Shown here piece after piece: positions 17,521 through 53,365 of a DNA stretch of 64,000 bases. The notes beneath the pieces are model-generated. The model was not told where the DNA came from. It searched no databases and worked only from the letters and a program-made list of their open reading frames with translations. The stretch comes from Leptolyngbya sp. FACHB-8 (GTDB lineage Bacteria > Cyanobacteriota > Cyanobacteriia > Elainellales > Elainellaceae), in NCBI RefSeq assembly GCF_014695575.1, contig NZ_JACJOO010000089.1, positions 1-64,000 of the forward strand, given 5' to 3'. A program made the position numbers and the translations under genes. Position 1 is the stretch's first letter. Each line of letters starts with the position of its first letter.

Positions 17521-17588
17521 GTTAAATGCACACAACAAAAAGCAATGTGACGCAAAGCGTCACATTGCTTTTTGTTGTGTGCATTTAA
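17521..17588. repeat. perfect extragenic hairpin
   Basis: GTTAAATGCACACAACAAAA pairs with its complement through AGCAATGTGACGC, giving a stem of about 32 bp around AAA. It lies between convergent genes. Confidence 0.8.
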
Positions 17589-17607
17589 CCTTATTTGTTA
17601 TTACATC

Positions 17608-17699: not shown

Positions 17700-18101
17700 C
17701 TAGCTACTAGGGGGGAGAATGGCACGAACCTGGTTGAGTAATTGAGTGATGTCTACAGGCTTCCGAATAAATCCATCAGCTCCTACATTAAAGCCGTCAG
17801 CGGCTGTAGGCTGGTCGTGTCCGGTTACCAGCACAATAGGAATAAAGGGGAGATTCGGATTTGCACGAATCTGCTGAGTGACCTCATAGCCGTTCATGTC
17901 AGGCATCATCACATCCAACAAAACCAGATCGGGAGGCTCAGCGGCGATTTTTTCTAAAGCTGCCGGACCGCTATCAACTACATCTACCTGATATCCCTCT
18001 GACTCCAAAAGAGTTTGCAGGAAGAAGGTGTTATCAGGGATATCATCAACAACCAAAATCCGATCCATTTCGATGCTTGGGGGGGGATACGGAGTGTTCA
18101 T
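17700..18101 (-). CDS. single-domain response regulator (CheY-like)
   Basis: A receiver domain without output domain, 133 residues from the ATG at 18101. A TTG at 18125 would add eight residues. The acidic pair is in RILVVDDIPDN, the phosphoacceptor Asp in VLLDVMMPDMNGYE, the conserved Thr in VLVTGHD and the Lys in IRKPVD. It lies 183 bases downstream of the ethylene-receptor-like kinase on the same strand and is clearly paralogous to the receiver gene at 21632-22012 on its other side. A role as phosphate acceptor or sink for that kinase is inferred from context. Confidence 0.88.
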   Translation of the reverse strand: MNTPYPPPSIEMDRILVVDDIPDNTFFLQTLLESEGYQVDVVDSGPAALEKIAAEPPDLVLLDVMMPDMNGYEVTQQIRANPNLPFIPIVLVTGHDQPTAADGFNVGADGFIRKPVDITQLLNQVRAILPPSS

Positions 18102-18307
18102 TTTACCGTGAGAGCAAATTTTCAACAGGGAAGGGATGTGCTCATTGTCGTTAATGTAACATCCTTTGCCCTCCTTCTAAAGGGAGGGGCCAGGTCTACT
18201 AGAAAAAATAAGCAGTATCCCTTAAGGTGTACATGAATAGCCTTTCATGCTGGGTTTCACACCCCATAATTCTGTAACAGTGCCCCGATCTTGAGCTTCT
18301 TCAGAGG

Positions 18308-20869
18308 TTATGAATGGGTAGGCAAGGTCACTGTAAAGATTGCGCCCTTGCCTTCTCCTGGGCTTTCGGCCTGAATGCTGCCGCCGTGTAGCTCAACCAG
18401 TTGGCGGGCGATCGCCAGACCTAAGCCCAGGCCCCCGTGTGACCTGGTATTAGAAGCATCAGCCTGACGGAAGCATTCAAAAATATAAGGTAGTGCCTCC
18501 GGCCTGATGCCCAATCCGGTATCGCTAATTTGCAGGCAGATGTTACTACTATTCTGCTTCAAAGCAACTTTGACAGACCCGTCTTGAGGCGTAAATTTGA
18601 CGGCATTGGCTAATAGGTGTTCAAACACCTCCCGTAATCGGTCAGGATCGCCAGGAATAGGGGCGATCGCGTCAGGAATTTGGCTTTCCAGATGAATAGA
18701 CTTACTTGCTGCTACTGGCTGTATGGTTTCTAGCACTTGAGTTAGCACCACTGGCAAACTCACCGGACTACAATTTAGAGCGATTTCTCCCCGTAGCAGA
18801 CGAGAAATATCAAGCAAATTATCGATGAGCTGGGTTTGCAGGCGAGCATTGCGCTCAATTGTTTCTAAAGCGCGTTCTGTGACCGTGGCATCAAACTTAC
18901 GACTTCGTAGCGCTTGCGACCAGCCCAGAATGGAATTAAGAGGAGTCCGTAATTCGTGAGAAACCAGACCTAAAAACTCTTCCTTCAGGCGGTTAGCCTG
19001 CTCCAACTTTTGAGTTTGCACCTGGAGGGTATTAACAGCGATTTGCAACTCTTGTCGTCGCTGGCTAACCTCTTCGACCAGGGCTTCCAAATCATGGCTC
19101 TGGCTTGCTAATTCGCGTTGCAGCCGATCGCGCACTCGATTAATAGCAATTAAATTGCCAATGCGAACTCGCAACTCTTCTACGGAAAAGGGTTTCATTA
19201 AGTAATCCTGTGCCCCCCAGCGCAGTAACTCAATCCGCAAATCCACATCCGATTTTGCCGTCAACATAACAACGGGAATGGTGTCCAGCTCTGGGTACGT
19301 GCGAAGCTGGTGGATAAATTGATCGCCGCTCAGGTAGGGCATCATGACATCACTCAGAATCAGGTCAGGCTGAAGGGCGATCGCCTGCTCCAACCCGTCC
19401 TTTCCATTGGAGGCAGTAGCGGTGCGGTAATCAGAAGCTAGAGTTGAGGTGATGAACTGATTCATTTCGGGATTGTCTTCGACCACCAGTACCAGAGGTT
19501 TACCTTCAGGTTGTACGGGGCCAGATTGACCAGCGGGATTAATCGTGCGAAGCTCTTCAACAATGAGATTGGCAATATCATCAGAGCTAGAAACAACGTA
19601 AGGAGATGTTGTTTCTTCTCCGGAAAGAGCATGAATGGGAAGTTCTACAGTGAACTGTGCGCCGCCATCGGGTGCATCCCCAACCGTAATCGTGCCACCC
19701 TGCAACGTGACAAACTCACGGGTAATGGCGAGACCGAGGCCGGTGCCACCGAACCGCCGTGTTGTGCCGCCTTCCCCCTGGCTAAACCGCTCAAAAATAG
19801 TTTCTCTCAACTCCACGGGAACCCCACAACCGCTATCCTGAACTGACAGGACTGCCCGTGGAAGTGGCTCGGAGTTGTCAGCCTCCACAGACTGCACCCG
19901 TAAGCGACAACGAATAGTGCCACCCTGGGGGGTAAATTTGAAGGCATTGGAAAGCAGATTCAAACATATCCGCTGGGTTTTGGCCGCATCAAGCTGCAAT
20001 GGAAGCGACTCGGGAACATCAACAATAAAGGTAATTTGCTTCTCCTGAGCTATCCCATCAAAGTTGGCAGCCGTCAGGCGTACCAGATGAGCCAAGTCAA
20101 CGGGAACATAAGTTACCGCCATTTTGTTGGCTTCTAGTTTAGACACATCCAGCAAATCGTTGACTTGCTTGAGAAGAAGGCGCGCATTACGCTCCACAAT
20201 ATCTAACGACTGGCGTTGCTCCGAGGGTAGGTCGGAACGGCTGAGTAAGGTTTCCAGTGGCCCCAGAATAAGAGCCAGGGGTGTGCGCAATTCATGGCTG
20301 ACGTTGGTAAAAAACTGAGTTTTTAGAACGTCTAGTTCTTTCAGACGTTCGTTGAAAGCTTCTAGTTTGAGATTAGCGGTTTCTAAATGCGATCGCCGCT
20401 CCTCCGATAGCTTAGCGGCCTCGACCAGGGCTAAGGCCTGAGGCACCAGCATCGGCAGGATGACCGCCGTTGTTACAGAGGCGATCGCTGTCACTACTTT
20501 CAGTGCCCCTGACAACCAGTAGGTTGGGTGCCACAGCGTCCACACATCCATAAAGTGGGTGCTGGCGCAGGCCACAATAAATGAGCCAAAAGCCAGAAAC
20601 ATCCAGTGGAAGGGGATTTCTCGGCGAGTTTTATATACCAAGTAAGCCAGAGTTGCAGAGATCGCCACATAGGCGATTGCAATCAGCGAATCTGAAATGA
20701 CGTGCATCCATACCAGACCCGGCCTCCACAAGTAGCAGTGCCCATGAGGGATAAACCCACTTACGGATAGGAGAGATTTCCAGCCTCCGGTAAAGGTGAG
20801 GAGAAAGGCGATCGCTCCCAGGGCTATCGCAACGGCATAACTAACATTGTTTTGACGGGTACTAATCAT
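18308..20869 (-). CDS. ethylene-receptor-like hybrid kinase (EBD-HK-REC-HK)
   Basis: An 853-residue protein. After one extra N-terminal helix (about 10-28), residues 52-145 form a three-helix ethylene-binding domain of the plant ETR1 type. Asp60, Tyr67 and Ile70 match ETR1 Asp25, Tyr32 and Ile35. Cys101 and His105 (CASTH) match the copper ligands Cys65 and His69. The Pro of ETR1 position 36 is Ser71 here. A coiled coil leads to a first HisKA (His192, SHELRTPL) and ATPase (NLLSNAFKF, GGTGLGLA), a receiver (about 458-575, Asp507, Lys559), then a second HisKA (His638) and ATPase (GGLGLGLA). There is no GAF, PAS or phytochrome module. It probably senses ethylene, or another small ligand through copper, in the membrane. 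Two lone receivers flank it. Confidence 0.9.
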   Translation of the reverse strand: MISTRQNNVSYAVAIALGAIAFLLTFTGGWKSLLSVSGFIPHGHCYLWRPGLVWMHVISDSLIAIAYVAISATLAYLVYKTRREIPFHWMFLAFGSFIVACASTHFMDVWTLWHPTYWLSGALKVVTAIASVTTAVILPMLVPQALALVEAAKLSEERRSHLETANLKLEAFNERLKELDVLKTQFFTNVSHELRTPLALILGPLETLLSRSDLPSEQRQSLDIVERNARLLLKQVNDLLDVSKLEANKMAVTYVPVDLAHLVRLTAANFDGIAQEKQITFIVDVPESLPLQLDAAKTQRICLNLLSNAFKFTPQGGTIRCRLRVQSVEADNSEPLPRAVLSVQDSGCGVPVELRETIFERFSQGEGGTTRRFGGTGLGLAITREFVTLQGGTITVGDAPDGGAQFTVELPIHALSGEETTSPYVVSSSDDIANLIVEELRTINPAGQSGPVQPEGKPLVLVVEDNPEMNQFITSTLASDYRTATASNGKDGLEQAIALQPDLILSDVMMPYLSGDQFIHQLRTYPELDTIPVVMLTAKSDVDLRIELLRWGAQDYLMKPFSVEELRVRIGNLIAINRVRDRLQRELASQSHDLEALVEEVSQRRQELQIAVNTLQVQTQKLEQANRLKEEFLGLVSHELRTPLNSILGWSQALRSRKFDATVTERALETIERNARLQTQLIDNLLDISRLLRGEIALNCSPVSLPVVLTQVLETIQPVAASKSIHLESQIPDAIAPIPGDPDRLREVFEHLLANAVKFTPQDGSVKVALKQNSSNICLQISDTGLGIRPEALPYIFECFRQADASNTRSHGGLGLGLAIARQLVELHGGSIQAESPGEGKGAIFTVTLPTHS

Positions 20870-21444: not shown

Positions 21445-21601
21445 CTATAGCGGGTGCATCCCACTTTTGTAAGTGAGGCGGGCTAAGCCCGCCTCACTTA
21501 CAAAAGTGGGTTTCCAAATCTGCAAAAGTGGGATGCACCCACTATAGCGAGGTAGGAGAGATGGATGCAGAACTTTTTCCTGTATCCATCTCTCCTACCT
21601 C
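21445..21601. repeat. two adjacent long inverted repeats
   Basis: The first, 21445-21547, has CTATAGCGGGTGCATCCCAC paired with its near-complement, and nested inside it a second stem ACTTTTGTAAGTGAGGCGGGC with its own complement plus a repeat of CAAAAGTGGG. The second, 21549-21601, pairs GAGGTAGGAGAGATGGAT with ATCCATCTCTCCTACCTC. They sit just beyond the stop of the receiver gene at 21632 and may end its transcript. Confidence 0.78.
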
Positions 21602-21631: not shown

Positions 21632-22012
21632 TTAGGATGGCTTTAGAAAAGCTTCGATACGGCTCAATAGCTGATCAAAGTCAATGGGTTTACGAATAAA
21701 ATCATTAGCTCCCAATGATAACCCTTGCCTTGCATCTGTTTCAGAATAGGCTGTCACTAGCAGAATAGGAATAGATGATAATGCCTGGTTCTGTCGAATT
21801 TGTTGGGTCACTTCATACCCACTCATGTCCGGCATCATAACATCCATGAGGATTAGAGCAGGTGGCGAATTTTCAACTTTTTCTAGAGCCGAATGACCGC
21901 TGTCAGCCACTTCAATGTTATATCCCTCTGCCTGCAAAAGGGTTTGCAGCAAAAACAAATTGTCAGCTGAGTCGTCTACGATCAAAATGTAGGGACTTGG
22001 AATGGAACACAC
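21632..22012 (-). CDS. single-domain response regulator (CheY-like)
   Basis: A 126-residue receiver domain alone. Acidic residues lie in ILIVDDSADN, the phosphoacceptor Asp in ILMDVMMPDMSGYE, Thr in LLVTAY and Lys in IRKPID. It starts with GTG at 22012; an ATG-initiated form would lose part of the first strand. It shares long identical stretches with the receiver at 17700-18101 (FLQTLL, EGY, MMPDM, GYEVTQQIR, FIRKP), and both lie on the same strand as the ethylene-receptor-like kinase between them. A phosphotransfer partnership is likely but inferred. Confidence 0.87.
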   Translation of the reverse strand: MCSIPSPYILIVDDSADNLFLLQTLLQAEGYNIEVADSGHSALEKVENSPPALILMDVMMPDMSGYEVTQQIRQNQALSSIPILLVTAYSETDARQGLSLGANDFIRKPIDFDQLLSRIEAFLKPS

Positions 22013-22675: not shown

Positions 22676-22780
22676 TACAGCGCTTTTTAAGCGCTTAAAA
22701 TCTGGTTGTTTTTGTGAGAGCCGCGCGGAGCGCGGCTCTCACAAAAACAAGAGTGGCTGATTCAAGCGCAAACCGCTATA
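22676..22780 (-). repeat. extragenic hairpin, family A (copy 4)
   Basis: Reverse orientation: TACAGCGCTTTTTAAGCGCTT, then a perfect core GTTGTTTTTGTGAGAGCCGCG around CGGAG with its complement, then GAGTGGCTGATTCAAGCGCAAACCGC. Confidence 0.88.
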
Positions 22781-22857
22781 AACCTGGAATAGGAAACTAT
22801 AGTTTTCCATTTCATATTCATATATCTACTCAGCAACAGAAGAAAATACATTAGTTC

Positions 22858-22932
22858 GGACAGTTTTTCTGAAACCCTTGATTTTGCGTGCGCGAAGCGC
22901 ACGCAAAATCAAGGGTTTCAGAAAAACTGTCC
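22858..22932. repeat. perfect 35-bp-stem hairpin
   Basis: GGACAGTTTTTCTGAAACCC continues as TTGATTTTGCGTGC and pairs perfectly with the downstream arm around a GCGAAGC tip. The inner arm CCCTTGATTTTGCGTGC is shared with the hairpin at 39358-39430. Confidence 0.85.
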
Positions 22933-23122
22933 AGAGTATTGAAAATAGAAGTTACACATTTTGCTGCAGAGCACGAGTTTAGCAAGATGAAAGATAGAGC
23001 TGTAGCTGTTTCTGCTCAATCCCTAGGAGATGGATCCTGGCTTGCCTAGATCTTTCATATGACAGACGTTATCGCTAACAAGCTGACGTTATTCTCCGGA
23101 CATCAAGACAGGAGTAATATTC

Positions 23123-28030: not shown

Positions 28031-29845
28031 TTAGCCCTGATCCATAGCAAGTAGAACGGTAAAACGGGTTTGATCAGGGTTACTTTCGACCTGGATATGG
28101 CCTTGCATCTGCTCAACAAGCTTTTTCACCAGGGTTAAGCCTAAGCCTGTACCGCCATGCTTCCAGGGGTCGTTATTGGGAATGCGGTAGAACTTGTCAA
28201 AAATGCGGGGGAGTTCAGTGGGCATAATCTCAACCCCCGTGTTGGTGACGGAGAGACGCAGCTTGATCGGCTCTGTTCCTTCATTTTGGGCAGAAGCTCT
28301 GGCCATGACAGAGATCGTCCCTCCGGCCGGGGTGTACTTACAAGCATTACTGAGCAGTTCAGTCACTACGCGCGTTAGGCTCAATGGATCGAGATTGAGG
28401 GTTGGAAGATCTGGGGCGATGGTTACATTCAGGCGTTGCTGCTGATTGTGGGCACGCGCCTCAAAGGGTTCGAGCAGATAGGGGATAAAATCCTGAAGGA
28501 AAACTGGGGTGGGCTGATTGTCGTAGGTTCCAGCTTCAATATGCTGAAGGTGTAATAAATCTTCCACCAGGGCGAGCTCACGATCGCACTCCTCCTGCAA
28601 AACCGTCAAGTATTGCACAGCCTTTTGCCGATGCTCCATGGAGTGTTCCATCATGTCGACGAAATTCTGTCCCTGATCGGTCAGGTTCATCAGCAATTTC
28701 AGAACCATTTTCATGCTGGCAACGGGCGATCGCAACTCATGGGAAATCGTACTCAAAAAGTCATCCTTAAGCTGATTCAATCGCTCCAATTCTCGTACCT
28801 GCGATTGGGCGGCCTCGTAGAGTCTGGCCTGACGGAGGGCGATCGCGCATTGATTAGCGGCCTGCTGCACTAAATGGACTTCCATCGCACTGAAGCTGGC
28901 GTAAACCTCCCGGAACAACCAGAGATCGCCTAGAATCCCTGATTGGTCTACCTGATGGTCAAAAATAGGGCAGGCCAGAATGGCTGAGTGATGACGAATA
29001 GCGGTGGGTTGAATTTGGCAGAACGCGAAGCAGAGCCGCTCTTGTAACTGCTCATATAACTCTGGGAAATCGGCCATGTACAGGGTTTGACCCTGGGTTA
29101 CTGCTAGCCCAGGCTGAAGCCACTGATACCGAATAGTAGAGGTTGCATGATCAGCACTGTAGAGGGCAGCATCACAGCAATGCACATTGAGCACCTGGGC
29201 CAGGGTCTCAACCGCAGTTTGTAGAATCTGGTTTTGATCAAGGGAATCTCGCACCTGATCAGAGATGCGTTGCAAGGCTAGTTTCAGGTTTAGAGCCTGT
29301 TGTAATTCTCGGGTACGGGCTTCAACTCGTTGCTCCAGGTCAGCGTTCAGTCGCCGGACTTCTGCTTCAACGCGCTGACGCTCTTCAATCTCCTGGTGCA
29401 GTTTTTCGTTCTTCTGAATAACCAGCGCTTGTTGTTCCAAAATTTCTTTTTGCTGTTGCCGGATGAGAAGCTGATTTTTAATGCGAGCGAGCACCTCCAT
29501 CTCATGGAAGGGTTTGGTAATATAGTCTTGCCCACCCACCTCAAAGGCGTAAACTTTATCACTTACATGATCAAGGGCGCTGATAAATATGATGGGGATA
29601 TGCTGAGTTGTAGCCGAAGCCCTCAACTGTTGGCAGACCTCATAACCGCTCATCTCCGGCATATTAATATCCAGCAAGATCAGATCAGGTGGATCTCGGA
29701 AGATGGCTTGTAGAGCCATTTTGCCGCTCAATGATTTGCGTACGAGGTAATCATGGGATTCGAGTATTTTTGCCAACAGTCGTAAGTTATCTGGCGTATC
29801 ATCCACCAGTAAAATATTCGCGATGGAGGGATTGGATGATACCAT
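28031..29845 (-). CDS. REC-coiled coil-GAF-histidine kinase
   Basis: A 604-residue response-regulator kinase. The receiver (1-125) has DDTPDN, phosphoacceptor Asp59 and Lys111. A coiled coil (about 125-185) leads to a GAF-like domain (190-340), then HisKA with His369 (SHELRSP) and an ATPase domain (LLSNACKYT, GGTGLGLTL, with VTNTGVEI in the G1 position). It ends without a further receiver. It lies 24 bases after the REC-GGDEF gene on the same strand, and its receiver and linker are closely similar to that protein's. It is probably the last gene of the signalling block and may receive phosphate from an upstream kinase. Confidence 0.9.
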   Translation of the reverse strand: MVSSNPSIANILLVDDTPDNLRLLAKILESHDYLVRKSLSGKMALQAIFRDPPDLILLDINMPEMSGYEVCQQLRASATTQHIPIIFISALDHVSDKVYAFEVGGQDYITKPFHEMEVLARIKNQLLIRQQQKEILEQQALVIQKNEKLHQEIEERQRVEAEVRRLNADLEQRVEARTRELQQALNLKLALQRISDQVRDSLDQNQILQTAVETLAQVLNVHCCDAALYSADHATSTIRYQWLQPGLAVTQGQTLYMADFPELYEQLQERLCFAFCQIQPTAIRHHSAILACPIFDHQVDQSGILGDLWLFREVYASFSAMEVHLVQQAANQCAIALRQARLYEAAQSQVRELERLNQLKDDFLSTISHELRSPVASMKMVLKLLMNLTDQGQNFVDMMEHSMEHRQKAVQYLTVLQEECDRELALVEDLLHLQHIEAGTYDNQPTPVFLQDFIPYLLEPFEARAHNQQQRLNVTIAPDLPTLNLDPLSLTRVVTELLSNACKYTPAGGTISVMARASAQNEGTEPIKLRLSVTNTGVEIMPTELPRIFDKFYRIPNNDPWKHGGTGLGLTLVKKLVEQMQGHIQVESNPDQTRFTVLLAMDQG

Positions 29846-29869
29846 GGCACGTTTGCGATCAAGGATAAG

Positions 29870-30832
29870 TCAATGGCGTATTGAGTACTTAGCACGTTTA
29901 TGCTCATACATGAGTTGATCAGCCTGGGCTATGAGTTGAGTCAGAGAAAAGCGATCGCCCAGGTTACATTGGCTAATACCAATACTCATAGATACCTGTT
30001 CAGCAGGTTCGCAAGTTTGATTGAAATTGCAGAGATTTGTCTCTAAACGATGACTGACATCTGCGGCATGGTCCGGACAAGCTGGAATAAAGACCGCAAA
30101 CTCATCGCCGCCTAACCGCCCTACAATGTCAGCATCGCGAAAGGTTTGCTTGAGTAATTGAGCTGCATGGGTGATCATGCGATCGCCCACGGCATGGCCC
30201 AAAGTGTCATTAACGACTTTTAGTCCATCCAGATCAATAAACACTAAACAGCACGGCATCTGACTGCGCCAAGCAGCTTTAAGTTGGTGCTCGGCCAGGA
30301 CAAAAAAGCCTCGTCGGTTATAAAGGCCCGTTAATTCATCGGTTAAGGAGAGCTGCCTGACCTCTGCTTCTGCTTTTAGCCGTTCTTTAATTTCCTGTTC
30401 TAATCGTTGGTTTTGTATCAAAAGTTGTTGTCGTTGCTGTTGAATGAGAAGCTGATTTTTTACGCGCATTAATATTTCTAGCTCTTGAAAGGGTTTGGCA
30501 ATGTAGTCTTGCCCTCCGATTTCAAACGCTCGAACTTTATCATTGATCTGATTCAAAGCACTAATAAAAATAATAGGAATATGGGCTGTGCTTTCAGATG
30601 CTTTTAACTCCTGGCAGACAGCATAACCACTGATGTCAGGCATATTAATATCTAACAGGATTAGATCGGGAGGATCGCGGTAAACTCCCTGAAGCGCCAT
30701 CCTGCCTGACAAAGATTTACGTACCATATACCCCTCAGCCTCCAGGATGCGGGCCAGCAACCGTAAGTTATCAGGGGTATCGTCAACAATTAAAATATTC
30801 GTCTCAGTAACAGATTTTAGTAAGGTAATCAT
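29870..30832 (-). CDS. response-regulator diguanylate cyclase (REC-GGDEF)
   Basis: A 320-residue protein that makes cyclic di-GMP. The receiver (about 12-125) has DDTPDN, phosphoacceptor Asp61 and Lys113; a coiled coil links it to the cyclase domain (about 160-320). The active-site motif GGDEF (241-245) is intact, and RDAD (232-235) five residues upstream matches the RxxD product-inhibition site, so an active, feedback-regulated enzyme is expected. There is no EAL domain. Its receiver is a close paralogue of that of the next gene. It is third in transcription order after two sensor kinases. Confidence 0.93.
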   Translation of the reverse strand: MITLLKSVTETNILIVDDTPDNLRLLARILEAEGYMVRKSLSGRMALQGVYRDPPDLILLDINMPDISGYAVCQELKASESTAHIPIIFISALNQINDKVRAFEIGGQDYIAKPFQELEILMRVKNQLLIQQQRQQLLIQNQRLEQEIKERLKAEAEVRQLSLTDELTGLYNRRGFFVLAEHQLKAAWRSQMPCCLVFIDLDGLKVVNDTLGHAVGDRMITHAAQLLKQTFRDADIVGRLGGDEFAVFIPACPDHAADVSHRLETNLCNFNQTCEPAEQVSMSIGISQCNLGDRFSLTQLIAQADQLMYEHKRAKYSIRH

Positions 30833-30856
30833 AGCGTTCCTGTCCCAACGAATTCG

Positions 30857-30931
30857 GGTGTTTCTTCTACAACTCCTAATTTTGTAGACGCCTTAGATAC
30901 ACAAAATTAGGAATTACAGAAAAAATACCCA
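30857..30931. terminator. imperfect hairpin between the phytochrome and GGDEF genes
   Basis: GGGTGTTTCTTCTACAACTCC plus TAATTTTGT pairs with ACAAAATTAGGAATTACAGAAAAAATACCC with some bulges. It fills most of the 112-base gap after the phytochrome kinase and could separate the block into two transcripts or attenuate the downstream genes. Confidence 0.5.
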
Positions 30932-30944
30932 AGGTGTTGTTTAT

Positions 30945-33900
30945 CTAACATTGAGTGAGGTTGGCGATTGTCTCCAATTGAAAGTTGTCAACCAGAAATT
31001 TCATCACACCAATTAGGTTTTGCTCCTCCGTAGGAATTTGAGCAATTAGCTGACGAAGCTTTATATCGTTCAGATCCAATGCAGCTTCATGAACTTGAGT
31101 TACCCATTCTAATCCCATTATTCCCAGTTCCTGAGAAGTCAAGTACTTTTCTTGATGTGTGGCCGCTCTCAACGGTATTTCCTCCGCATAACGGTAACGG
31201 ATTCCTAAGTGATATGCCATTTTGTTAAACAGCACGCTTTCAGTAAAGGGTTTTGCGATGTAGTCGGTGCACCCCGCCTCGAAGCAAGCTATTCGATCAT
31301 TGTCAAAAGCATAGGCCGTTAAGGCAATAATAGGCGTGCTACTTTTCTGGAGGACGGTTCCTGCCTGCAAGAGAGTGGTCTGAGCTTCCTGCATACGAAT
31401 TTGCCGGATGGCCTCGTAGCCGTTCATTTCAGGCATTTGAATATCCATCAGAATGAGGTGTGGATGCCAGGCCTGCCAGTGGGCGATCGCCTCAACACCA
31501 TTCTTGACGGCTTGCACCTCAAATCCTATAGATTCCAGTAAGGTCACCAGTAATTGCCGATTTTCGGCGACATCTTCAGCGACCAAAATGCGAGGGGTGG
31601 GTTGTCCGGGAGCCAGGCCAACGACAGAATATTGCAATTCAGGTTCCACAATATCTAATCCTTCTGGCAGGCGCAGAACTACCTGGCAAGTAAATGTAGA
31701 ACCCCGGTTTACCACGCTCCGAACAGTCAGGGTACCCCCCATCAAGTTGGCAAACTGACGACTGATTGAGAGCCCCAATCCGGTGCCCTGAGCATGACGG
31801 CCCTGATCCGTCTGAATGAATGCTTCAAAGATGGAGTTCAAATCTGTACTGGCAATACCCGGGCCTGTATCTTCCACGTCAAACTGGAGAACAATGGGCT
31901 GCCGGGAGGAATTGGAGTGTGATTTTAAGTGTGTGAAGTCATTGCAGGATAATGCTTTAACTCGCAGGATGACCTTTCCTTCTACGGTAAATTTGATGGC
32001 ATTACTCAGCAGATTGATCACAATTTGGCGAAGCTTGGCCTCGTCACCGCAGACATAGCACGGCAGATTATCATCCTGTTCAGTTTCAAGCCGTAGACCC
32101 TTTTCTGATGCCTTTAAGGTGAACATCTCTTGAATGGACAAGATTAAGCGATGAATATCAAAACAGGATTCGGTTAAGACCAGTTGTCCGGCCTCAATTT
32201 TTGACATTTCCAGGACGTCATTAATCAGGGTCAAAAGATGTTCACCACTGCGGCTGATAATACCCAACTGTTCTCGAAACTCGGTGGGAGTTTCCTGGTT
32301 GCGAGCCATCAGTTGAGTGAATCCCAAAATGGCATTCAGGGGGGTTCGCAGTTCATGGCTCATTTTGGCCAGGAACTGACTTTTGGCGCGGTTGGCGATC
32401 GCCGCTCGCTCTGCCGCTTGTTCCAACGCCGCCTGGGAAAACTCCAGGACTGCAAGCATCAAGGTGTTGCGCATTTCTGCTGCAGCTTCCAGTTCCGCTA
32501 ACTGCCAGGGGCAAGACATCTCCTGCACCGTTTCCTTCCAGAGCTCAAAGGATTTCCGGGGATTGAGGCGCATGTTGCCAACTTCATCAACACTAATAGC
32601 TGACTGCGGATTCCCAGCCCAATTCACAGTTTGGACTTGTTCGGGTCGAAACCAGAGAATGTGGTATGACTTTTGCTTCACCTGACTCAGGACAATGGAA
32701 ATGGCCAGGATGCCGCTGGCACAATCCTTAAACTGCCGGGCCGGGGGGTATAAAGCGGGAAGCGTACTGGTCGCAAACACCCGCTCTCCAGGTGATAGTT
32801 CAGAGTTGGGTTGGTTGCTTCGGTGCTCCCCCAGCCAGGTAATTAAGGACTGCACCTCATCGCTAGAAGGTGTTTGCCCAATGAGGGTCAACTGACCATC
32901 AAGGAGTAAGGCGGCTCCCTGGGCATGAACCAGATTCAGGAGTTGCATCGTGTTGTCTGCGAGCACTTGTTCGATCGCGCTGGCATCTCGCAAAAAAGCC
33001 CATTGCAATTGATCTTGAATAGCCTTGACTTGCACCCGGTATTCGTTCAACTCACGCTCTTGTTGGTTAACCAATTCAATGGAGGCAAATTGGCCTAAAA
33101 ATTCACAGGTTTTGCGTAATTCGTAGTCCAACAGATGGGGGGTGTAGTGATGGCAGGCGATCAATCCCCACAGCTTTTTATCGTCAATCAGTGAAATGGT
33201 AAATGTCCCCGCAACACCCATGTTTTGCAAGTATTCCACATGGTATGGCGATACACCTCGCAGAACACAGGTACTGAGATCCAGTGATGAGGGCTTGTCG
33301 CTGTCAAGGATGAGTAAACGAGCCGAGGAAGCACTGACATCAGGGATTTGACGTACCCAATTGTGGCGGAAGAGTTGACGTGCCGGAACAGGAATATCGA
33401 AGGCGGGAAAATGCAGCCCCAGGTAGCTATCGAGATGGGGCTCCTTCTCTTCGGCAATGACCAATCCATGCTCATCCGCCTCAAATCGGTAAACCATGAC
33501 GCGATCGAATCCTGTCAGCGCCTTGATTTCTTGGGCAAGAATTTGAGCTAACTCCTCCAGGTTTGTGGACCGGCGAAGGCTCAGGGTTGCCATTTGGAGC
33601 CGATGGTAGAACTGAATGGAATGGGTTTTGTTGATGGGCGTGTGGGGTTCCAATTCCAACAAAAGGCCGTTTGACATTCGATGCAACGTGCAACGGAAAG
33701 CCCTTTTTCTTAGATGGGCCTGATGTCCTTTACGTTGAAATTTCAGGTCGAATGGATTGTGCAATTCCAGATTAGGATGAGCCAAAATCTGCCGCAGATG
33801 CTCGAGCTGTTTTCGGGAACATATTTGTTGTAAAGACCGGCCCAGTACCTTCGCAGCAGGGATACCCAGAAAGGCCTCTGTGTTATCGCTCACCTGCACA

Positions 33901-34046
33901 ATCTTGAGGGTTTCCTCCTCTAGCACCAACACCATTCCATGGGGCTGGATATAACCAGGAGCGTAGACGGATGCGTCATCACACACCTCCAGAGAGGCCA
34001 GTTTTGTAGCAGTTAATAAAGGAGTAAGTGCGATTTGTGACTTCAT
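30945..34046 (-). CDS. bacteriophytochrome hybrid kinase (PAS-GAF-PHY-HK-REC)
   Basis: A 1,033-residue photoreceptor from the ATG at 34046; a TTG at 34097 would add 17 residues. The PAS domain has Cys22 (LEVCDD) before YAPGYIQPHG, the biliverdin attachment site of bacteriophytochromes. The GAF domain has FPAFDIPVPAR (213-223) and His269 in SPYHVEYLQNMG, with no bilin-binding Cys next to it. The PHY domain shows the tongue motif PRKSF (496-500). HisKA has His564, the ATPase GGxG-type box is GTGLGLS, and the receiver has Asp868 and Lys932. A helical tail of about 70 residues follows. It should switch between red and far-red states and signal by phosphotransfer. It ends 112 bases before the cyclase gene. 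Confidence 0.93.
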   Translation of the reverse strand: MKSQIALTPLLTATKLASLEVCDDASVYAPGYIQPHGMVLVLEEETLKIVQVSDNTEAFLGIPAAKVLGRSLQQICSRKQLEHLRQILAHPNLELHNPFDLKFQRKGHQAHLRKRAFRCTLHRMSNGLLLELEPHTPINKTHSIQFYHRLQMATLSLRRSTNLEELAQILAQEIKALTGFDRVMVYRFEADEHGLVIAEEKEPHLDSYLGLHFPAFDIPVPARQLFRHNWVRQIPDVSASSARLLILDSDKPSSLDLSTCVLRGVSPYHVEYLQNMGVAGTFTISLIDDKKLWGLIACHHYTPHLLDYELRKTCEFLGQFASIELVNQQERELNEYRVQVKAIQDQLQWAFLRDASAIEQVLADNTMQLLNLVHAQGAALLLDGQLTLIGQTPSSDEVQSLITWLGEHRSNQPNSELSPGERVFATSTLPALYPPARQFKDCASGILAISIVLSQVKQKSYHILWFRPEQVQTVNWAGNPQSAISVDEVGNMRLNPRKSFELWKETVQEMSCPWQLAELEAAAEMRNTLMLAVLEFSQAALEQAAERAAIANRAKSQFLAKMSHELRTPLNAILGFTQLMARNQETPTEFREQLGIISRSGEHLLTLINDVLEMSKIEAGQLVLTESCFDIHRLILSIQEMFTLKASEKGLRLETEQDDNLPCYVCGDEAKLRQIVINLLSNAIKFTVEGKVILRVKALSCNDFTHLKSHSNSSRQPIVLQFDVEDTGPGIASTDLNSIFEAFIQTDQGRHAQGTGLGLSISRQFANLMGGTLTVRSVVNRGSTFTCQVVLRLPEGLDIVEPELQYSVVGLAPGQPTPRILVAEDVAENRQLLVTLLESIGFEVQAVKNGVEAIAHWQAWHPHLILMDIQMPEMNGYEAIRQIRMQEAQTTLLQAGTVLQKSSTPIIALTAYAFDNDRIACFEAGCTDYIAKPFTESVLFNKMAYHLGIRYRYAEEIPLRAATHQEKYLTSQELGIMGLEWVTQVHEAALDLNDIKLRQLIAQIPTEEQNLIGVMKFLVDNFQLETIANLTQC

Positions 34047-34112
34047 GGTGGTGGCGAGAGCAGGAATGAAGGAAGGGAAATCCGGGACAACCCACAAAAA
34101 CTTTAGGAACTG

Positions 34113-37100
34113 CTAGTGCTCAACGGGTTGGTGGAGCAGGTGTAAAATGTGCTCAAATGCAAACTGGTCAACCAGATCAAGCAGAAAGGTGGCGAGCTGA
34201 GTCGCCTGCGTGGGCAATTGGGCTACCAGTTCGGCGATCGCCCGGTCATTGCCACAGATCGCAGCATCCTCCAGAGCCTCTAACCAGGAGGCGGGCTGGG
34301 AAGTGAGTAAGGCCACATAAGGCTCGTTGGCATGAGGAGAGGCTGCTGGGAATGGAGTGATGGCCACATCCGGTTCTGCATAGATATACTCCAATCCCAG
34401 ATACTCCCTCATTTTCAGAAATAGGGTCTCTTCACGGAAGGGCTTGCTGATATAGTCATCGCAACCCGCAGCCAGAGCGAGGGTGCGATCGCTCTGGGAG
34501 GCTTGAGCGGTAAGGGCAATGATGATACTATTGGCCCCCTGTTCCAAAGCTCGAATTTGCCGGGTGGCCTCATACCCATCCATCCCGGGCATCCGAACAT
34601 CCATCCACGTGAGGTCAGGGTACCATTCCTGCCAGAGGTGAATTGCATCCTCCCCATTACTGGCTTCCCGCACCTCCAGTCCTGGCTGGGAGAGCAATCG
34701 CATCATGAGTGTACGGTTTTCGAGTTGGTCATCTACGACAAGAATGCGGCGAAGGGGTTGTCCGGGAGTTAGGCCGATGACAATGCGATCGCTGGCTTCG
34801 GGGACAACACTAACCCCACTGCAAGGCTGCACCGGGAGAGTAAGGGTAAAGGTACTTCCCTGTCCCAGGGTACTCCTGACGGTAATACGACCCTCCATCA
34901 ATTCCAGCAATTTGCGGCTGATGCTTAGCCCCAATCCCGTACCGCTGGCAGATTGTCGCCCAGCCTTCGCTTGCACAAAAGCATCAAAGATTGTGGTCAG
35001 TTCGTCCTCGGCGATGCCCGGCCCGGTGTCGATGATGGTGACCTGGAGCGTCAGGGGGGCAGGGGCAAGTGGATAGGTGGAGGGGTAGGGCCTAGACTTA
35101 GCGTCTCCACCGGGCCACTCAGCCACTCGGCCACGCGTCGGCTCCTTAATGCGCACCTGCAGCGTGACACTTCCCCGATCCGTGAACTTAATGGCATTGC
35201 TCAAGAGGTTGAGCAGGATTTGGCGCAGTTTTTGAATGTCGGAAAGAATGAATTGAGGAACTTCGGGGGCAATGTCAAAGAACAGGAGTAACCCTTTGGC
35301 TGTGGCGCGTTCGGCCAGCATGGTACGCAGGGAATGCAATAGTGCGATGAAGTCAAATCCGCTCAGGTCAATGGTGCTATAGCCAGCTTCAATTTTGGAG
35401 AGATCCAATACGTCGTTAATCAGATTCAGTAGATGATCGCCGCTACGGCGAATGGTTTGCAGGTCGGATTGTTGCGGGAGGGTGAGGGCCGGGTCGTGGG
35501 TCATGACCTGGGCAAAGCCGAGAATGACGTTGAGAGGGGTACGAAGCTCATGACTCATATTGGCGAGGAACAAACTTTTGGCCAGATTGGCCGCTTCTGC
35601 GGCTTCTACGGCCTGGCGCAGGGCTGACTCACGGCGTTTGCGATCGCTCACATCCTGCCCAATACCCAGGGAATGCCCGTTGGAAAGCTGCACATTGGCC
35701 CAGGAGATGTCGAGGTTCCGTCCAGACGCGGTTTGAATGGTAAAGTCATGCCATTTCCCACTGGCTGCCAGTCGATGGGCGCGCATTTGGTGTCGTGCGT
35801 CTGGGGAGCTGTTATGTTGAGCCGGAGTATCCAGGTGTTGCCAGTCTGCCAGTGACCAACCCAGTACCTTTTCCAGTTCGGGGTTGACCAATTCCACCTG
35901 GCCTTCCCCATTGAACAACACAATCATGAACGGAATGTGGTTAACAATGGCCTGAAAGATTTCTTTCTGGTGGCGTAGTTCAGCTTCGGCTTGTTTGCGA
36001 TCGCTAATATCCCGATAGGCTCCAATCATGCGGAGTGGCTTACCATTGGCATCATGAACAACGACCTTGCCATAGTCTGTAATCCATTTCCACGTGCCAG
36101 ATTTGCATCGAACCCGATAGTCACAGGTATAGGTGTGTGAATGATCGTGCAGGTGAGCTGTGAGGCACCTCAGCACTTCTGCTTGATCGTCTGGGTGAAT
36201 CGTTTCCTTCCAACTGGGTAAATCCAGGAGTACCTCACCAGGCTGGTATTCGAGGATCTCTAGATAGCGATCGCTATGGTAAATATCTCCCGTTTGCATA
36301 TTCCAATCCCATAGCCCATCCTGGGAGGCATCCAAAGCCAGCTTCAGGCGTTCCTCACTAAATTGGAGATTGGTCTCAGCGTGTTTGCGATCGCTCACAT
36401 CAATAGCATTGCCAATGATGCCCCTGACATGGCCATCTGCGTTGGTAAAGGGGCTGATAGTGGTTTGATACCAGCGGGTCATTCCGTAGCGATCTTGAAT
36501 TTCTTGATCAGGAAAGGTGATGGGCGTAAGGTTTTGAATGACAGCTTGGTTCTGGCTAGCAAATTCCTTCGATTGCAAAAGGTTCTCGTTGAAGTCGCAA
36601 TCCTGTTTACCAAGCATCTCGCTAATGGGAATGCCATAGATAGCAGATGCTGCTTGATTGACGATCAAGAATTTTCCCTGTTGGTCTTTCACAAAAATCG
36701 AACTGGGAACAGCATCGATTACCTGTTGCAAAAAGTTCTTCTGAGCTTGCAGCTCCGCCTCAGCCTGTTTGCGGGCGGTAATGTCGCGTACCATCACCAG
36801 TACATCATGTTGAGGAAGGGGTACCACACGCAACTCTTCATGGCGCTGTTGCCCACCGAGAAGAAACTCATGCTCATAGACCTGTAGTTCATGGCTTTGC
36901 AGAGCCTGGTGGATGGACTCCAGACGTAATTGAGCGAGATGAGGGGGCAACACTTTGTTCAGCGTAGCGCTGGCTGCGATCTGATTTGGGTAGAGATGAT
37001 CAAAGCCATTTTTAGACATAAAGTCCACATAGCTTCCATCAGAACGCATGTGAATAAGGAGGTCTGGAATGGCTTCGATGATGGCTTGCTTAGTGGCTTC

Positions 37101-38210
37101 ACTCTGGCGTAATGCGTTCTCAGCTGTTTGGCGTTCTAATTCCATGCGTTTACGTTCACGCAGGGCAGCCTGCTGCTCATTAATATCAATGAACGTCACA
37201 ACGACCTGAAGGAGCTGATGATTTTGATCAAATTCTGGAAATGCGTTTGCTAATAGCCATCGCGGAGGTTTTTCTGCTTGCTGGATGCCCAACACAACGT
37301 TTTTGAGAGGAGCCCGAGTCGCTAAAACCTGGTTCACAGGATGGCAATCCGGAGGGATGGGTAAGCCATCCTCATCGGTAAAATGCCAGGTTGGATCCAT
37401 TTCATCTTTTCCCAATGAGCCCATGGAAAGACCCAACAGATCACAGGCGATTTGATTGCACATCAAAATCTGGGTGGCTGTCCTATGAATCACAAAACCT
37501 GCGTTGAGATTTTGGATTAATCGTCGATAGCGTTCTTCGCTTTCCCGCAAACCGACTTCAGTTTGCTTCTGCTCTGTAATATCGGTGTGAGAACCTGTCA
37601 TACGAACTACACGCCCGGCATCATCCCAGAGCGCCTGCCCACGGTCAAGAATCCACTTATAGGAGCCGTCTTTACACAGTACTCGATGCTCCGTGATGTA
37701 AAACGGTGTTTTTTTCGCAAAATGATCTTGAATGGCCTGGGTAACCCAGCCTAGATCATCGGGGTGAACTCGTTTTGACCATTCATCGATATGATTAGCA
37801 ATTTCATGGTCTGCAAACCCTAGCATTTCCTTCCAACGGCTGGAAAAGAAAACGTCGTTTGTTTGCACGTTCCAGTCCCAGATGCCATCGTTATTACCCC
37901 GCAGTGCAAGTTGCCAGCGTTCTTCGCTTTCTCGCAGGTCTTGTTCAATGAGTTTCCGCTGGGCAATTTCGTGGTGTAGCTGCCGATTGAGCGCCTGGAT
38001 AGAGGTTGTTTGTTGGCGTAGATAGACCATGAAAGCGATCGCCCACCCGCCCACGGTCCCCAACAGCACCATCATGGTCAGGATTGAGGGTGCTTCACAG
38101 AAGGCCTCTCGATGGGTCCAGAAATGCCATATTTCTAAAATCAGAATTGTGGCGATCGTGGCTGAGCCAAAAACCGCGCCAATGAGAGGAAACCGTCGAT
38201 AAGCGCTCAT
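34113..38210 (-). CDS. six-PAS membrane hybrid histidine kinase
   Basis: A 1,365-residue kinase. Two hydrophobic helices (about 10-27 and 44-62) anchor it. Six PAS/PAC modules follow, at about 95-215, 222-348, 368-482, 490-608, 618-740 and 745-858. Modules 1 and 5 have the WDWN start of PAS_3-type folds and share a similar PAC end. HisKA has His887 (SHELRTPL), and the ATPase domain has NLLSNAIKF, DTGPGIA and GTGLGLS. The receiver has Asp1204 and Lys1256. A helical tail of about 70 residues resembles that of the phytochrome kinase next door. It is first in the block, 66 bases before the phytochrome start. No ligand-specific PAS motif was recognised. Confidence 0.9.
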   Translation of the reverse strand: MSAYRRFPLIGAVFGSATIATILILEIWHFWTHREAFCEAPSILTMMVLLGTVGGWAIAFMVYLRQQTTSIQALNRQLHHEIAQRKLIEQDLRESEERWQLALRGNNDGIWDWNVQTNDVFFSSRWKEMLGFADHEIANHIDEWSKRVHPDDLGWVTQAIQDHFAKKTPFYITEHRVLCKDGSYKWILDRGQALWDDAGRVVRMTGSHTDITEQKQTEVGLRESEERYRRLIQNLNAGFVIHRTATQILMCNQIACDLLGLSMGSLGKDEMDPTWHFTDEDGLPIPPDCHPVNQVLATRAPLKNVVLGIQQAEKPPRWLLANAFPEFDQNHQLLQVVVTFIDINEQQAALRERKRMELERQTAENALRQSEATKQAIIEAIPDLLIHMRSDGSYVDFMSKNGFDHLYPNQIAASATLNKVLPPHLAQLRLESIHQALQSHELQVYEHEFLLGGQQRHEELRVVPLPQHDVLVMVRDITARKQAEAELQAQKNFLQQVIDAVPSSIFVKDQQGKFLIVNQAASAIYGIPISEMLGKQDCDFNENLLQSKEFASQNQAVIQNLTPITFPDQEIQDRYGMTRWYQTTISPFTNADGHVRGIIGNAIDVSDRKHAETNLQFSEERLKLALDASQDGLWDWNMQTGDIYHSDRYLEILEYQPGEVLLDLPSWKETIHPDDQAEVLRCLTAHLHDHSHTYTCDYRVRCKSGTWKWITDYGKVVVHDANGKPLRMIGAYRDISDRKQAEAELRHQKEIFQAIVNHIPFMIVLFNGEGQVELVNPELEKVLGWSLADWQHLDTPAQHNSSPDARHQMRAHRLAASGKWHDFTIQTASGRNLDISWANVQLSNGHSLGIGQDVSDRKRRESALRQAVEAAEAANLAKSLFLANMSHELRTPLNVILGFAQVMTHDPALTLPQQSDLQTIRRSGDHLLNLINDVLDLSKIEAGYSTIDLSGFDFIALLHSLRTMLAERATAKGLLLFFDIAPEVPQFILSDIQKLRQILLNLLSNAIKFTDRGSVTLQVRIKEPTRGRVAEWPGGDAKSRPYPSTYPLAPAPLTLQVTIIDTGPGIAEDELTTIFDAFVQAKAGRQSASGTGLGLSISRKLLELMEGRITVRSTLGQGSTFTLTLPVQPCSGVSVVPEASDRIVIGLTPGQPLRRILVVDDQLENRTLMMRLLSQPGLEVREASNGEDAIHLWQEWYPDLTWMDVRMPGMDGYEATRQIRALEQGANSIIIALTAQASQSDRTLALAAGCDDYISKPFREETLFLKMREYLGLEYIYAEPDVAITPFPAASPHANEPYVALLTSQPASWLEALEDAAICGNDRAIAELVAQLPTQATQLATFLLDLVDQFAFEHILHLLHQPVEH

Positions 38211-42163: not shown

Positions 42164-45100
42164 TTAGTCCCATTGCTCCAAAGCACCGAGCCAATAGCGA
42201 ACGAACTCTGCAATTTGGGCGCGGCGAGCTTCAAAATTGGCCGCAATCCAGATGAAGAGGAGGCCCAAAGCAATACCAACGGCCCAGAGGAGAAGGGGGT
42301 AAAGGTCGATGAGCACGACTAACTGACGGAGAACCTGGTAGATGAAGGCAAGCGTGCCGACGAACAAATAGGCGCGGACTCGAAAGGCTAAACCCGCAAT
42401 GACGAGAAGCAGGGCGATCGCCAGGGCGAAACCGGCCATCCCCAAGCCCCGCTCGGCTTCGTAAATGCTGGTCAGTACAATTAAGCCAACGGCTAGAATG
42501 CGCAACCAATGGCGATTCTGACGGCTGTTCGCCGTTTGCAGGTTAGGATCGACCTGGGCCAGATAGAGCAGGGATAGACCTATCAGCGACGCATAGGCCA
42601 AGGGTTCTTGAATGCCTTGCTCATTGAGCCATTGGAAAACGCCCCAGTTCGCCAACAGCACACTGAAGTAGCTCAACCGAACCTGATGCCTGACTTTAGC
42701 GACCCAGGCATAAAAGGCACCAACGATAAACAGCGATGGGGCAGCCGCCTGGTCAGCGAATAAAACAACGAGGGTGAGTGGAAGAATCAGGGCAGAGTTT
42801 TGCCAGGGGCGATCGCTCCAGCCAAGGCGAGGCCACGGTACCAGGTACATGGCGCAGGCGACAGGGGTAGCGATCGCGCCCGCCCAGGCCAGTAGTAACG
42901 CTGTATCAGGAACGGCAAGCCAGAGGCCGTAACCACAGGCCACGGTCGCCGCTGTGATACCGGCATAGGTTAGATTCTCCTGAGTGCGGCCCTGCCAGAG
43001 CGCATCAGCTGCCAGAATCAGAGCGACGCTAATCCAGAGCAGGCCACCCTGAAGGCTGCGGTCGAAGCTCAGTGCCATCAGGAGTAATCCACTGCCCAGA
43101 ACCCAATGACCCAGCGCAAAACTCTTAAATTCATCATGGGTTAATCGCAGATAGGGCCCAATCCAGCGGCTGAGGAGGCGATCGCCGACCCCCAGCACCG
43201 CTGCCAGTCCGGCCAGCAGGACCAATCCATCCCCTGCTGCCCCGCCGGATGCCTGGCTGAGTTGATAAATCAGTAACTCATAGAATCCGGCCGTGATGAG
43301 AAGCATGGCCCCAAAGGTCACGGGTTTGAGCCGGGGGCGTCGCCGTCCCACCCCTAGCCCGATGAGCGCAGCGGCGAGGGTGTAGAGTCCGGTGGCAGGG
43401 CTGAAGGGTTGCCCATGTCCGATGATGATGCCAGCAGCTCCGTATGACAGAGGGATCAAATGCCAGCTTTGGCGATAGGGTCGTGATTTCCGAGCCGTCC
43501 AGAAATCTCCAGCAATTTGGGTTCCTAGCCCCAGAGCCAGGTTGGCGATCGCCCACATCTGTCCATCCAGTGGGGCTGTTGGCTGGAGGTTGTGGATGAG
43601 AGCCAGCAGCAACATTTCGACGGCGATGGCAAGGCTATAGAAGCCGGGGTTGCGAGGGGCCAGCCAGAGGCGATAGGCGATGGCAGCGATCAGCAGGACT
43701 ATCCCTGCGGTCACTTGCCTGCTTAAGGGCACCTGCTCCGCAATGGTATAGAAAATGAAGCCATACAAGACGATGAACGTGCCGATGGAGAGGGCGATCG
43801 CCCATCCCGTCAAACTGGGTTTGTAAACCCGGCTGAGGGGGTTCTCTTTGCGAGATTGCCAATGCCAGAGACCCCATAAAGCAGCAATCATCAGGGGCAG
43901 CACTACGGGCCACTCAGGGGCTACTTGCTCCCGGACTTGCCAGAAGAGCGCACCGACAAACAGAAGACCCAACCCAATATGGGTAGTGGCATTGAGGCCA
44001 ACTGATTGCCTACGGGTGTTGAAGAGTAATAACCCCGTCATCAAACCCAAGCTGAATAGCCGAGTTTCCCAGGTTTCATAGGTCAGAGCCTGGACGAGAA
44101 CAGCCGCAGCGGTGCTACATCCAATTGCCGTTCTGTAAGGGGGAAAGGTGGGTAAATAGGCCAATCCAGTTAGAGCCAGAGGCACAGCCAGCCAGAGCCA
44201 GCCCCAGGGTTGAAGCACGGCTTCATTCCAAAACATCAGCCCACCCAAGCTGGCCAGCCCTAACCCGAGATGCCAGCTACTCTGGTGTACCCGAGACCAG
44301 CCAGGGCTGAGACAAAACCCCCACTCTACCAGAGCTGCCCCCAATAGCAGTAAGCTCCAGGTGGTGTAACTCAGCGTCGGGAAGGCCAGCGCAACCCAGG
44401 CCGCGATCGCCCCTAATCCTAGAAATTGTGCTCCATAGATGACCCAGCCCGGCAGCTCTTCCCGCCGACGGACGGTCACAATCAGGGTCAGGAAGGCAAG
44501 GCTGAGGGTGAGCGATCGCATCAACGGGTTAGGCAGACTTACAACCACCAGTCCGACGCCCAGGGCCAGAGCCAGGTGCTCAGCCGTACGACCTAGAGAC
44601 CTTTGGGATTGGCGGTAGTACCAGTTCCCCACCAGTAGTGTCCCGATCAGGTAAGGAAACATGGATACGCCCAACGCGGCCCAGGGCATACCCGCAGGGC
44701 CAGCCTGTTGCACTAACCAGGCAAAAATTCCTCGACGGGTTTCTGGCGGGATCACGCGGCCCATCAACCAGTAGGCTTGTAAGCCCACCAAAAACAGTGA
44801 GGCCAGATCTTCTCTCCGCTGCGTGTGAAGCAACTGCTCCAAAATCAACCCAACACCGATTAGACTGACGGCGATCGCCTGGAGCGGGGGCTGAGCTCCC
44901 ACCGTGACTCCCCAGCCGAGTAACAGCAAAGCTATCCCCAATTGCATCCACAAACGCCGGGCAGGGACGCGGCGAGATTGCCAGGCCAGAAGTCCACCAC
45001 AAATACCGAAGGCCAGCCCCAGTTGAGAAAAGGGCACCTGGGCAACCCATAAGGCTCGCACCAGCAGTATCAGCAGGGATAACAAAATTACGATAATAGG

Positions 45101-52046: not shown

Positions 52047-53312
52047 ATGGTTATTCCAAAGTCTCTCGTTCACACGCCAGTTCCTATCGCTCTGGCGGAC
52101 GCCTATCCCCAGGTGCGCCGCCTGAGTGAAGCCATCTGCAACCCCCTGGCGATTGAAGATTACGGCATCCAAAGTATGCCTGATGTGAGCCCCCCGAAGT
52201 GGCATCTGGCTCACACCACCTGGTTCTTTGAAACATTTCTACTCGTGCCCCATTTGCCGGGGTATGAGGTGTTTCACCCCCAATATGGCTATCTATTCAA
52301 CTCCTACTATGAGGCAGTGGGGCAGCGTCATCCTCGACCTCAGCGGGGGTTACTGTCTCGCCCCACGGTGGAAGAGGTGTATCGTTACCGGGCCTACGTG
52401 GATGATGGGATGCGATCGCTCCTCAACACACCGCTCAGCCCTGAAGTAAAAGATCTGATTACGCTAGGACTCCACCACGAACAACAACATCAAGAATTAC
52501 TGCTGACGGACATCAAACACATTTTTGCGATTAATCCTCTACGTCCTGCATACCGAACTGATCTGAAGGAGGCCACGCAATCCACAACTCCTTCTAAAGA
52601 GTCCTGGCTGGATTATCCCGGCAACCTCTATGCCATTGGCTTTGAGGGCAATGAGTTTGCCTTTGACAATGAACTGCCCCGGCACCAGGTCTACCTTCAA
52701 GACTTTTGGTTGGCGGCCCATCTCGTCACCAATGGAGAATACCTGGAATTTATTGAGGCTGGGGGATACCAGCAACCGGATCATTGGCTATCGGAGGGCT
52801 GGGCAACGGTGCAAACGCAGCGCTGGGAAGCCCCCCTCTACTGGGAGAAACGGGATGGTGACTGGTGGATTATGACGTTGGGAGGAATGCGTCCATTAAA
52901 CCTCAATGAGCCTGTTTGCCATGTCAGCTTCTTTGAAGCAGATGCCTACGCTCGCTGGGCCGGAAAACGGCTGCCTACAGAGGCAGAGTGGGAAGTTGCA
53001 ACGGCATCTGTGCCAGTCAAAGGCAACTTTCTTGAAGATGATTACCTCCATCCCATACCCGCTGCTGGTCTAACTCGTCCCGACCAGTTGTTTGGGGATG
53101 TGTGGGAATGGACGCAGAGCGCCTATCTTCCCTACCCCGGCTTTAAGACCGCACCTGGGGCAGTGGGTGAGTATAACGGCAAGTTTATGTGCAACCAGAT
53201 TGTGCTGCGGGGCGGTTCTTGCGTGACGCCTCCAAACCACATTCGTCCCACCTACCGCAATTTCTTCCCGCCCTCAGCTCGCTGGCAATTCAGCGGCTTC
53301 CGGTTGGCATAG
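52047..53312 (+). CDS. egtB: ergothioneine sulfoxide synthase EgtB
   Basis: A 421-residue non-heme iron enzyme that joins cysteine or gamma-glutamylcysteine to trimethylhistidine with oxygen. The N-terminal DinB-like domain has KWHLAHTTWF (His56) and the HX3HXE metal site His144-His148-Glu150 in LHHEQQHQE. The C-terminal half is the FGE-sulfatase fold (HQVYLQDFWLAAHLVTNGEY, WAGKRLPTEAEWE, FGDVWEWT, RGGSC) ending in SGFRLA. Length matches the family. egtD follows 53 bases downstream on the same strand. Whether cysteine or gamma-glutamylcysteine is used cannot be read here; no egtA or egtC is present in the window. Confidence 0.94.
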   Translation: MVIPKSLVHTPVPIALADAYPQVRRLSEAICNPLAIEDYGIQSMPDVSPPKWHLAHTTWFFETFLLVPHLPGYEVFHPQYGYLFNSYYEAVGQRHPRPQRGLLSRPTVEEVYRYRAYVDDGMRSLLNTPLSPEVKDLITLGLHHEQQHQELLLTDIKHIFAINPLRPAYRTDLKEATQSTTPSKESWLDYPGNLYAIGFEGNEFAFDNELPRHQVYLQDFWLAAHLVTNGEYLEFIEAGGYQQPDHWLSEGWATVQTQRWEAPLYWEKRDGDWWIMTLGGMRPLNLNEPVCHVSFFEADAYARWAGKRLPTEAEWEVATASVPVKGNFLEDDYLHPIPAAGLTRPDQLFGDVWEWTQSAYLPYPGFKTAPGAVGEYNGKFMCNQIVLRGGSCVTPPNHIRPTYRNFFPPSARWQFSGFRLA

Positions 53313-53365
53313 CAACAACGAGAGATCCCCCCATTCTCAAACCACTTATTTGGAGACAACATTCA

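Follow-up and report, generated by a model that had tools for sequence, protein, structure and literature searches.

The minus strand of a Leptolyngbya sp. FACHB-8 contig (NZ_JACJOO010000089.1) encodes, within the window (the whole 64,000-nucleotide stretch analysed here), an 853-aa protein with an ethylene-binding-type domain (EBD) and two histidine kinases (HK) around a receiver (REC). The coding strand is minus, and a plus-strand reading of the same interval contains 38 stops. A gene for a receiver-only protein lies on either side. The features are as follows.

18308–20869, minus strand: EBD-HK-REC-HK sensor gene, 853 aa (ORF, translation, Pfam)
20426–20716, minus strand: ETR1_N (ethylene-binding-type) domain, residues 52–148 (Pfam PF25487)
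20657–20659, minus strand: codon TCT for Ser71, which aligns with Pro36 of ETR1 (sequence comparison)
20453–20455, minus strand: Pro139 codon, helix III, ETR1 position ~106, clade-diagnostic proline (sequence comparison)
20324–20425, minus strand: residues 149–182, between the EBD and HisKA 1, no further domain found; inside modelled helix 117–195
20129–20323, minus strand: HisKA 1, residues 183–247, phospho-acceptor His192 (Pfam and motif)
19634–20000, minus strand: HATPase 1, residues ~290–412, bounds set by hand (Pfam and motifs)
19160–19492, minus strand: receiver domain, residues 460–570, Asp507 (Pfam and motif)
18800–19001, minus strand: HisKA 2, residues ~623–690, bounds set by hand, His638 (Pfam and motif)
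18317–18652, minus strand: HATPase 2, residues 740–851 (Pfam)
21632–22012, minus strand: upstream receiver-only protein, 126 aa, candidate partner, 762 nt before the sensor gene (coordinates)
17700–18125, minus strand: downstream receiver-only protein, candidate partner; TTG start as listed, with a Met nine codons in, 133 aa thence

A Pfam domain search of the sensor protein (E up to 0.01) matched ETR1_N at 1e-35, with 122.3 bits against a cut-off of 27, making it a member of this domain family; the same profile search matched none of 14 control genomes, so the match is far beyond chance. Two HisKA, two HATPase_c and one Response_reg domain (460–570) were also found, with a weak HATPase_c_2 match below the cut-off. 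Motif scanning located SHELRTP at 191 and 637 (His192 and His638), SDVMMP at 506 (Asp507), N-box-like motifs at 304 and 751, and G-box-like motifs at 345/374 and 783/812. The order is thus LvrA-like with intact phospho-sites, and a sequence-only reading that had proposed an ETR1-type sensor on a chassis of two complete kinases around a receiver is borne out. Its further claim that the EBD joins the kinase without GAF or PHY also holds: GAF, PHY and PAS were all absent at E up to 0.01, and the protein has no GAF/PHY region behind the EBD of the kind that defines EBD-phytochrome photoreceptors of the Slr1212 type. PADLOC returned nothing beyond weak partial kinase and receiver matches.

The sensor retains six of the seven residues on which ethylene binding by ETR1 depends: Asp60 (Asp25 in ETR1), Tyr67 (Tyr32, which we take to be the seventh essential residue), Ile70 (Ile35), Ile98 (Ile62), Cys101 (Cys65) and His105 (His69). 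The exception is Pro36, replaced by Ser71. Translation confirmed the residue numbers first assigned to Asp60, Tyr67, Ser71, Cys101 and His105. An AlphaFold2 model built from 48 sequences (moderate confidence, mean pLDDT 71.2, pTM 0.48) has helices at 5–25, 27–33, 50–80 and 88–113 and one long helix at 117–195. At this moderate confidence, there are three membrane helices (50–80, 88–113 and 117–195) of the ETR1/SynEtr1 type, and Cys101 and His105, on whose sharing a helix the earlier reading had staked its case, lie four residues apart on helix II. In the model, helix III (117–195) continues from the membrane into the first kinase as one helix. A phmmer search (E up to 1) found no solved structure matching the membrane domain.

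The two flanking receiver-only proteins are 58% identical over 118 residues. Near-perfect palindromes with arms of 21–45 nt occupy intergenic DNA around the sensor gene (17521–17589, 21460–21510, 22706–22750 and 22849–22941). Elsewhere in the window, the minus strand at 28031–38210 carries a run of signalling genes (REC-GAF-HK, REC-GGDEF, a PAS-GAF-PHY-HK-REC phytochrome and a multi-PAS HK-REC). An overlapping gene pair at 52047–54346, with FGE-sulfatase/DinB_2 and Methyltransf_33 domains, presumably resembles the ergothioneine genes egtB and egtD, and two large ORFs (42164–45937, 1257 aa; 47838–50504, 888 aa) matched nothing in Pfam at E up to 1e-5.

A serine clade at the Pro36 position

In the available parts of the literature, Pro36 is reported to belong to the seven residues that ETR1 needs to bind ethylene, five of which are named there (PMC6586836), and Asp25 is named as essential elsewhere (PMC11819568, likewise in part); tomato ETR3 carrying Pro36Leu is described as leading to ethylene insensitivity (PMC6727826, excerpt). 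We compared 231 distinct ETR1_N proteins (EBD matches covering >75 profile positions, near-identical domains merged) from the window's genome, related genomes, a named genome collection (best 80 of 319 confirmed stretches) and further fetched loci, a set biased towards relatives of the window's protein, with a draw across the phylum as its less biased part. The Pro36 column holds Pro in 171 proteins, Ser in 46, Ala in 10, Leu in 2, and Gly and Phe in one each.

Forty of the 46 Ser proteins group in a single clade that contains no other row (SH-aLRT 99), in a tree of 124 of the 231 rows that took in all non-Pro or directly joined proteins and every third of the rest, at ≥85 aa. Support was 95 with the Ser column masked (113-row tree, eleven long-branch loci excluded) and 99/95 with columns 71 and 139 masked (97-row tree, sixteen loci and the rogue long-branch row L160 excluded). 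When six diagnostic columns were masked, the clade was not one branch and took two changes, with a single clade in 20% of 200 bootstrap trees, so its support partly rests on the diagnostic columns themselves; with L160 kept, that row fell within the clade (41 tips; 101-row tree, every fourth of the rest, thirteen loci excluded). The bootstraps of the 101-row and 97-row trees had not settled, and in the 113-row and 101-row trees two rows of one locus could share a name, one overwriting the other.

The Ser codon is TCN in each of the 46 proteins, and all four bases occur in third position; the simplest reading would be one change from a CCN proline codon followed by silent drift. Ser71 as a private oddity or sequencing error was ruled out by its fixation in 40/40 clade members. 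The suspicion raised from the sequence that Ser71 might alter binding is supported. Among the best 80 of 319 stretches, the clade spans at least 13 named genera: Myxacorys, Leptolyngbya, Pantanalinema, Nodosilinea, Cyanosarcina, Symplocastrum, Coleofasciculus, Aphanothece, Microseira, Laspinema, Phormidium, Oscillatoria and Planktothrix.

Asp60, Tyr67, Ile70, Ile98, His105 and Lys124 are present in all 40 clade members and Cys101 in 39; the lowest pairwise identity of the clade domains is 0.52. The one member with Gly in place of the copper-ligand Cys (L251:1737-4154) comes from a genome that belongs to a different class within the phylum and is listed with 9% contamination. Outside the clade, in two related ETR1_N proteins (L256 and L258), Tyr32 is replaced by Cys, Pro36 by Ser and His69 by Pro, which suggests a copper site likely to be dead or changed.

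A second proline and the ligand

A second position separates the clade from its relatives: Pro139, in helix III, occurs in 37 of the 38 readable members (one Ala, two gaps) and in 0/191 others, including 0/6 Ser36 and 0/10 Ala36 proteins outside the clade. Judged from these two columns, the clade has in effect moved its proline from helix I to helix III. Linked changes are Leu/Met to Ala at 93 (Ala in 37/40; Leu or Met in 182/191 others), Tyr/Phe to Val at 68 (Val in 33/40; Tyr or Phe in 187/191 others), Ile/Val/Leu to Ala at 75 and Val/Ile to Ala at 130; these residue statistics, like those on gene neighbours below, are not independent, the genomes being related. Averaged over the three helices, side-chain volume is 136.6 cubic angstroms in the clade versus 141.4 in the others, 4% of the 191 falling below the clade mean.

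With six residues of the seven present and Pro36 the one found changed, we do not class the sensor as an ethylene receptor of the ETR1/SynEtr1 type. The description of it as a 'dedicated ethylene sensor' is unsupported as stated and was only a guess, since its subfamily is without one of the seven essential ETR1 residues. The kinase may nonetheless work like an ethylene receptor. A Cu(I) transmembrane sensor driving a two-stage kinase is the most likely reading, and ethylene is our best guess at the ligand.

The loss of an essential residue in all 40 members, together with the changes at 93, 68, 75 and 130 and the lower helix volume, would also fit a clade retuned to another ligand (a larger alkene, a volatile or Cu(I) itself) that no longer binds ethylene tightly. 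This we consider unlikely, though deserving of weight: the other six essential residues stay, helix II volume by itself is unremarkable (30% of the others fall below the clade mean), and positions 89, 125 and 106 have grown (W89, V125, F106). As the trend is confined to one clade, it amounts to one evolutionary event, not many. A specific form, equally tentative, is that the clade rebuilt its sensor by the proline shift and smaller side chains so that the copper site would sense isoprene, a 1-alkene or copper, not ethylene, through the directly joined two-stage kinase.

The two proline changes coincide, which invites another reading: the protein would be a full ethylene receptor, with binding and output as in SynEtr1, its helix III proline compensating for the one lost from helix I. 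Since a coincidence within one clade cannot tell such compensation apart from two unrelated changes along the same branch, we hold this to be improbable. That the EBD binds no ligand and is only a membrane anchor or dimeriser, as the loss of Pro36 from the essential set and the L251 protein without its copper Cys might suggest, is very improbable given copper-site residues kept in 39 or 40 of 40 members despite domains differing by up to 48%.

Architecture, neighbours and a putative relay

The EBD sits directly on HK-REC and a second kinase in 34/40 clade members, five of which have a long stretch between receiver and second kinase (L042, L043, L073, L082 and L240; in L073 it holds PAS and GAF). 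The other six comprise four pieces (L011, L014, L015 and L019) and two proteins with spacers: L249, with 271 aa between EBD and kinase, and L084, whose GAF there rules out a clade wholly without GAF in that position. In the phylum draw, at least 74 of 291 genomes, including the window's own, have an ETR1_N match (E up to 0.001). Among the matches listed, Ser occurs in 5/5 directly joined two-kinase proteins, Pro in 6/6 directly joined single-kinase proteins, and Ser in 7/137 others, one of them (L249) a clade member. That direct joining always goes with Ser was ruled out by ten directly joined EBD kinases that have Pro, none of which has a second kinase in the part seen (L270 is incomplete).

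Near-full-length relatives with 68–71% identity were found in four of 60 related genomes (G011, G018, G053 and, over residues 1–771, G003), and G033 has one in two pieces. A PAS-HK-REC-HK relative (L016) is 37% identical over residues 149–850, and the HK-REC-HK chassis therefore also occurs with another sensor. The window's genome encodes five ETR1_N proteins including the sensor, the other four being EBD-GAF-HK-REC, EBD-PAS-GAF-HK-REC, EBD-PAS-GAF-HK and EBD-GGDEF. In the last (L005:1300-2337), ETR1_N is joined to GGDEF, possibly forming an ethylene-type sensor that makes c-di-GMP.

A same-strand receiver-only gene lies upstream within ~1.2 kb in 10/36 testable clade members versus 4/186 others (Fisher 2.4e-6), and on either side in 14/36 versus 18/186 (Fisher 4.8e-5), P values that flatter the association because the genomes counted are related. 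No such neighbour was found on the same strand within ~1.2 kb in 22/36.

We lean towards placing the sensor in a distinct cyanobacterial subfamily of ETR1_N kinases, with putative Cu(I)/ethylene sensing through a two-stage kinase relay. The EBD would hold Cu(I) and bind ethylene or a like small alkene. Helix III would run on into the first kinase as a continuous signalling helix, so that binding would change autophosphorylation at His192. LvrA/LvrB biochemistry and the L016 chassis suggest the rest of the chain: the phosphoryl group would pass from His192 to Asp507, the receiver would then control the second kinase (His638) in the manner of Rec-controlled kinases, and that kinase would pass the signal to receiver-only proteins like the two encoded by the flanking genes. 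This proposal draws support from the copper ligands kept in the clade, the single helix 117–195, the clade-wide Ser/Pro139 pair and the receiver-only neighbours; counted against it are the essential role of Pro36 in ETR1, the ethylene insensitivity reported for Pro36Leu in tomato ETR3, the L251 protein and the 22 of 36 members with no such neighbour.

The need for each of the seven ETR1 residues in ethylene binding is known only from mutants. At one of these positions the clade has long kept a natural exception, alongside its diagnostic proline at another site. This allows two questions to be tested directly: does binding itself depend on Pro36, or only helix geometry, and can an ETR1-type copper sensor have a ligand that is not ethylene? 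The sensor meets its two kinases with no further sensory domain found in between, a simple setting for work on membrane-domain signalling.

Comparison with known systems

EBD proteins with varied outputs have been reported (PMC7700396, in part); in the full-text literature, mostly non-subscription, we found neither a Pro36-to-Ser subfamily nor an EBD on HK-REC-HK described. With ETR1 and the plant receptors the sensor shares a three-helix ETR1_N domain, the Cys65/His69 copper ligands and six of the seven essential residues. It differs in having Ser at Pro36, Pro at ~106, two active-looking kinases around a receiver and no GAF, which plant subfamily 1 receptors are described as having next to their EBD (PMC5285503, excerpt).

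Synechocystis SynEtr1 (Slr1212) is likewise a cyanobacterial EBD kinase. It is reported to bind ethylene through Cu(I) and to sense light and ethylene, with a cyanobacteriochrome-type light domain (PMC6682694, in part), whereas no light domain was found in the sensor; Slr1213 is its reported downstream regulator (PMC7700396).

Azospirillum AzoEtr1 is described, in the part of the source available, as an EBD-PAS-HK protein that binds ethylene through Cu(I) and adjoins a 135-aa receiver-only regulator (PMC11819568). The absence of GAF/PHY and the adjacent receiver-only regulator are common to both proteins; AzoEtr1 differs in its PAS domain, single kinase and full set of seven residues.

The HK-REC-HK order is shared with Leptospira LvrA/LvrB. 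LvrA (NF047465) is the best NCBIfam match of the sensor, at 612.2 bits against a cut-off of 1200, which leaves the sensor outside that family. LvrA is reported as a PAS-HK-REC-HK protein without membrane helices whose first kinase phosphorylates its own receiver Asp (PMC5863495, in part), and in LvrB receiver phosphorylation is said to switch on the kinase behind the receiver (PMC13269768, in part); LvrA differs from the sensor in its PAS sensor and lack of membrane helices. Both traits thus have precedents, the EBD kinase free of GAF/PHY in AzoEtr1 and the HK-REC-HK chassis in LvrA.
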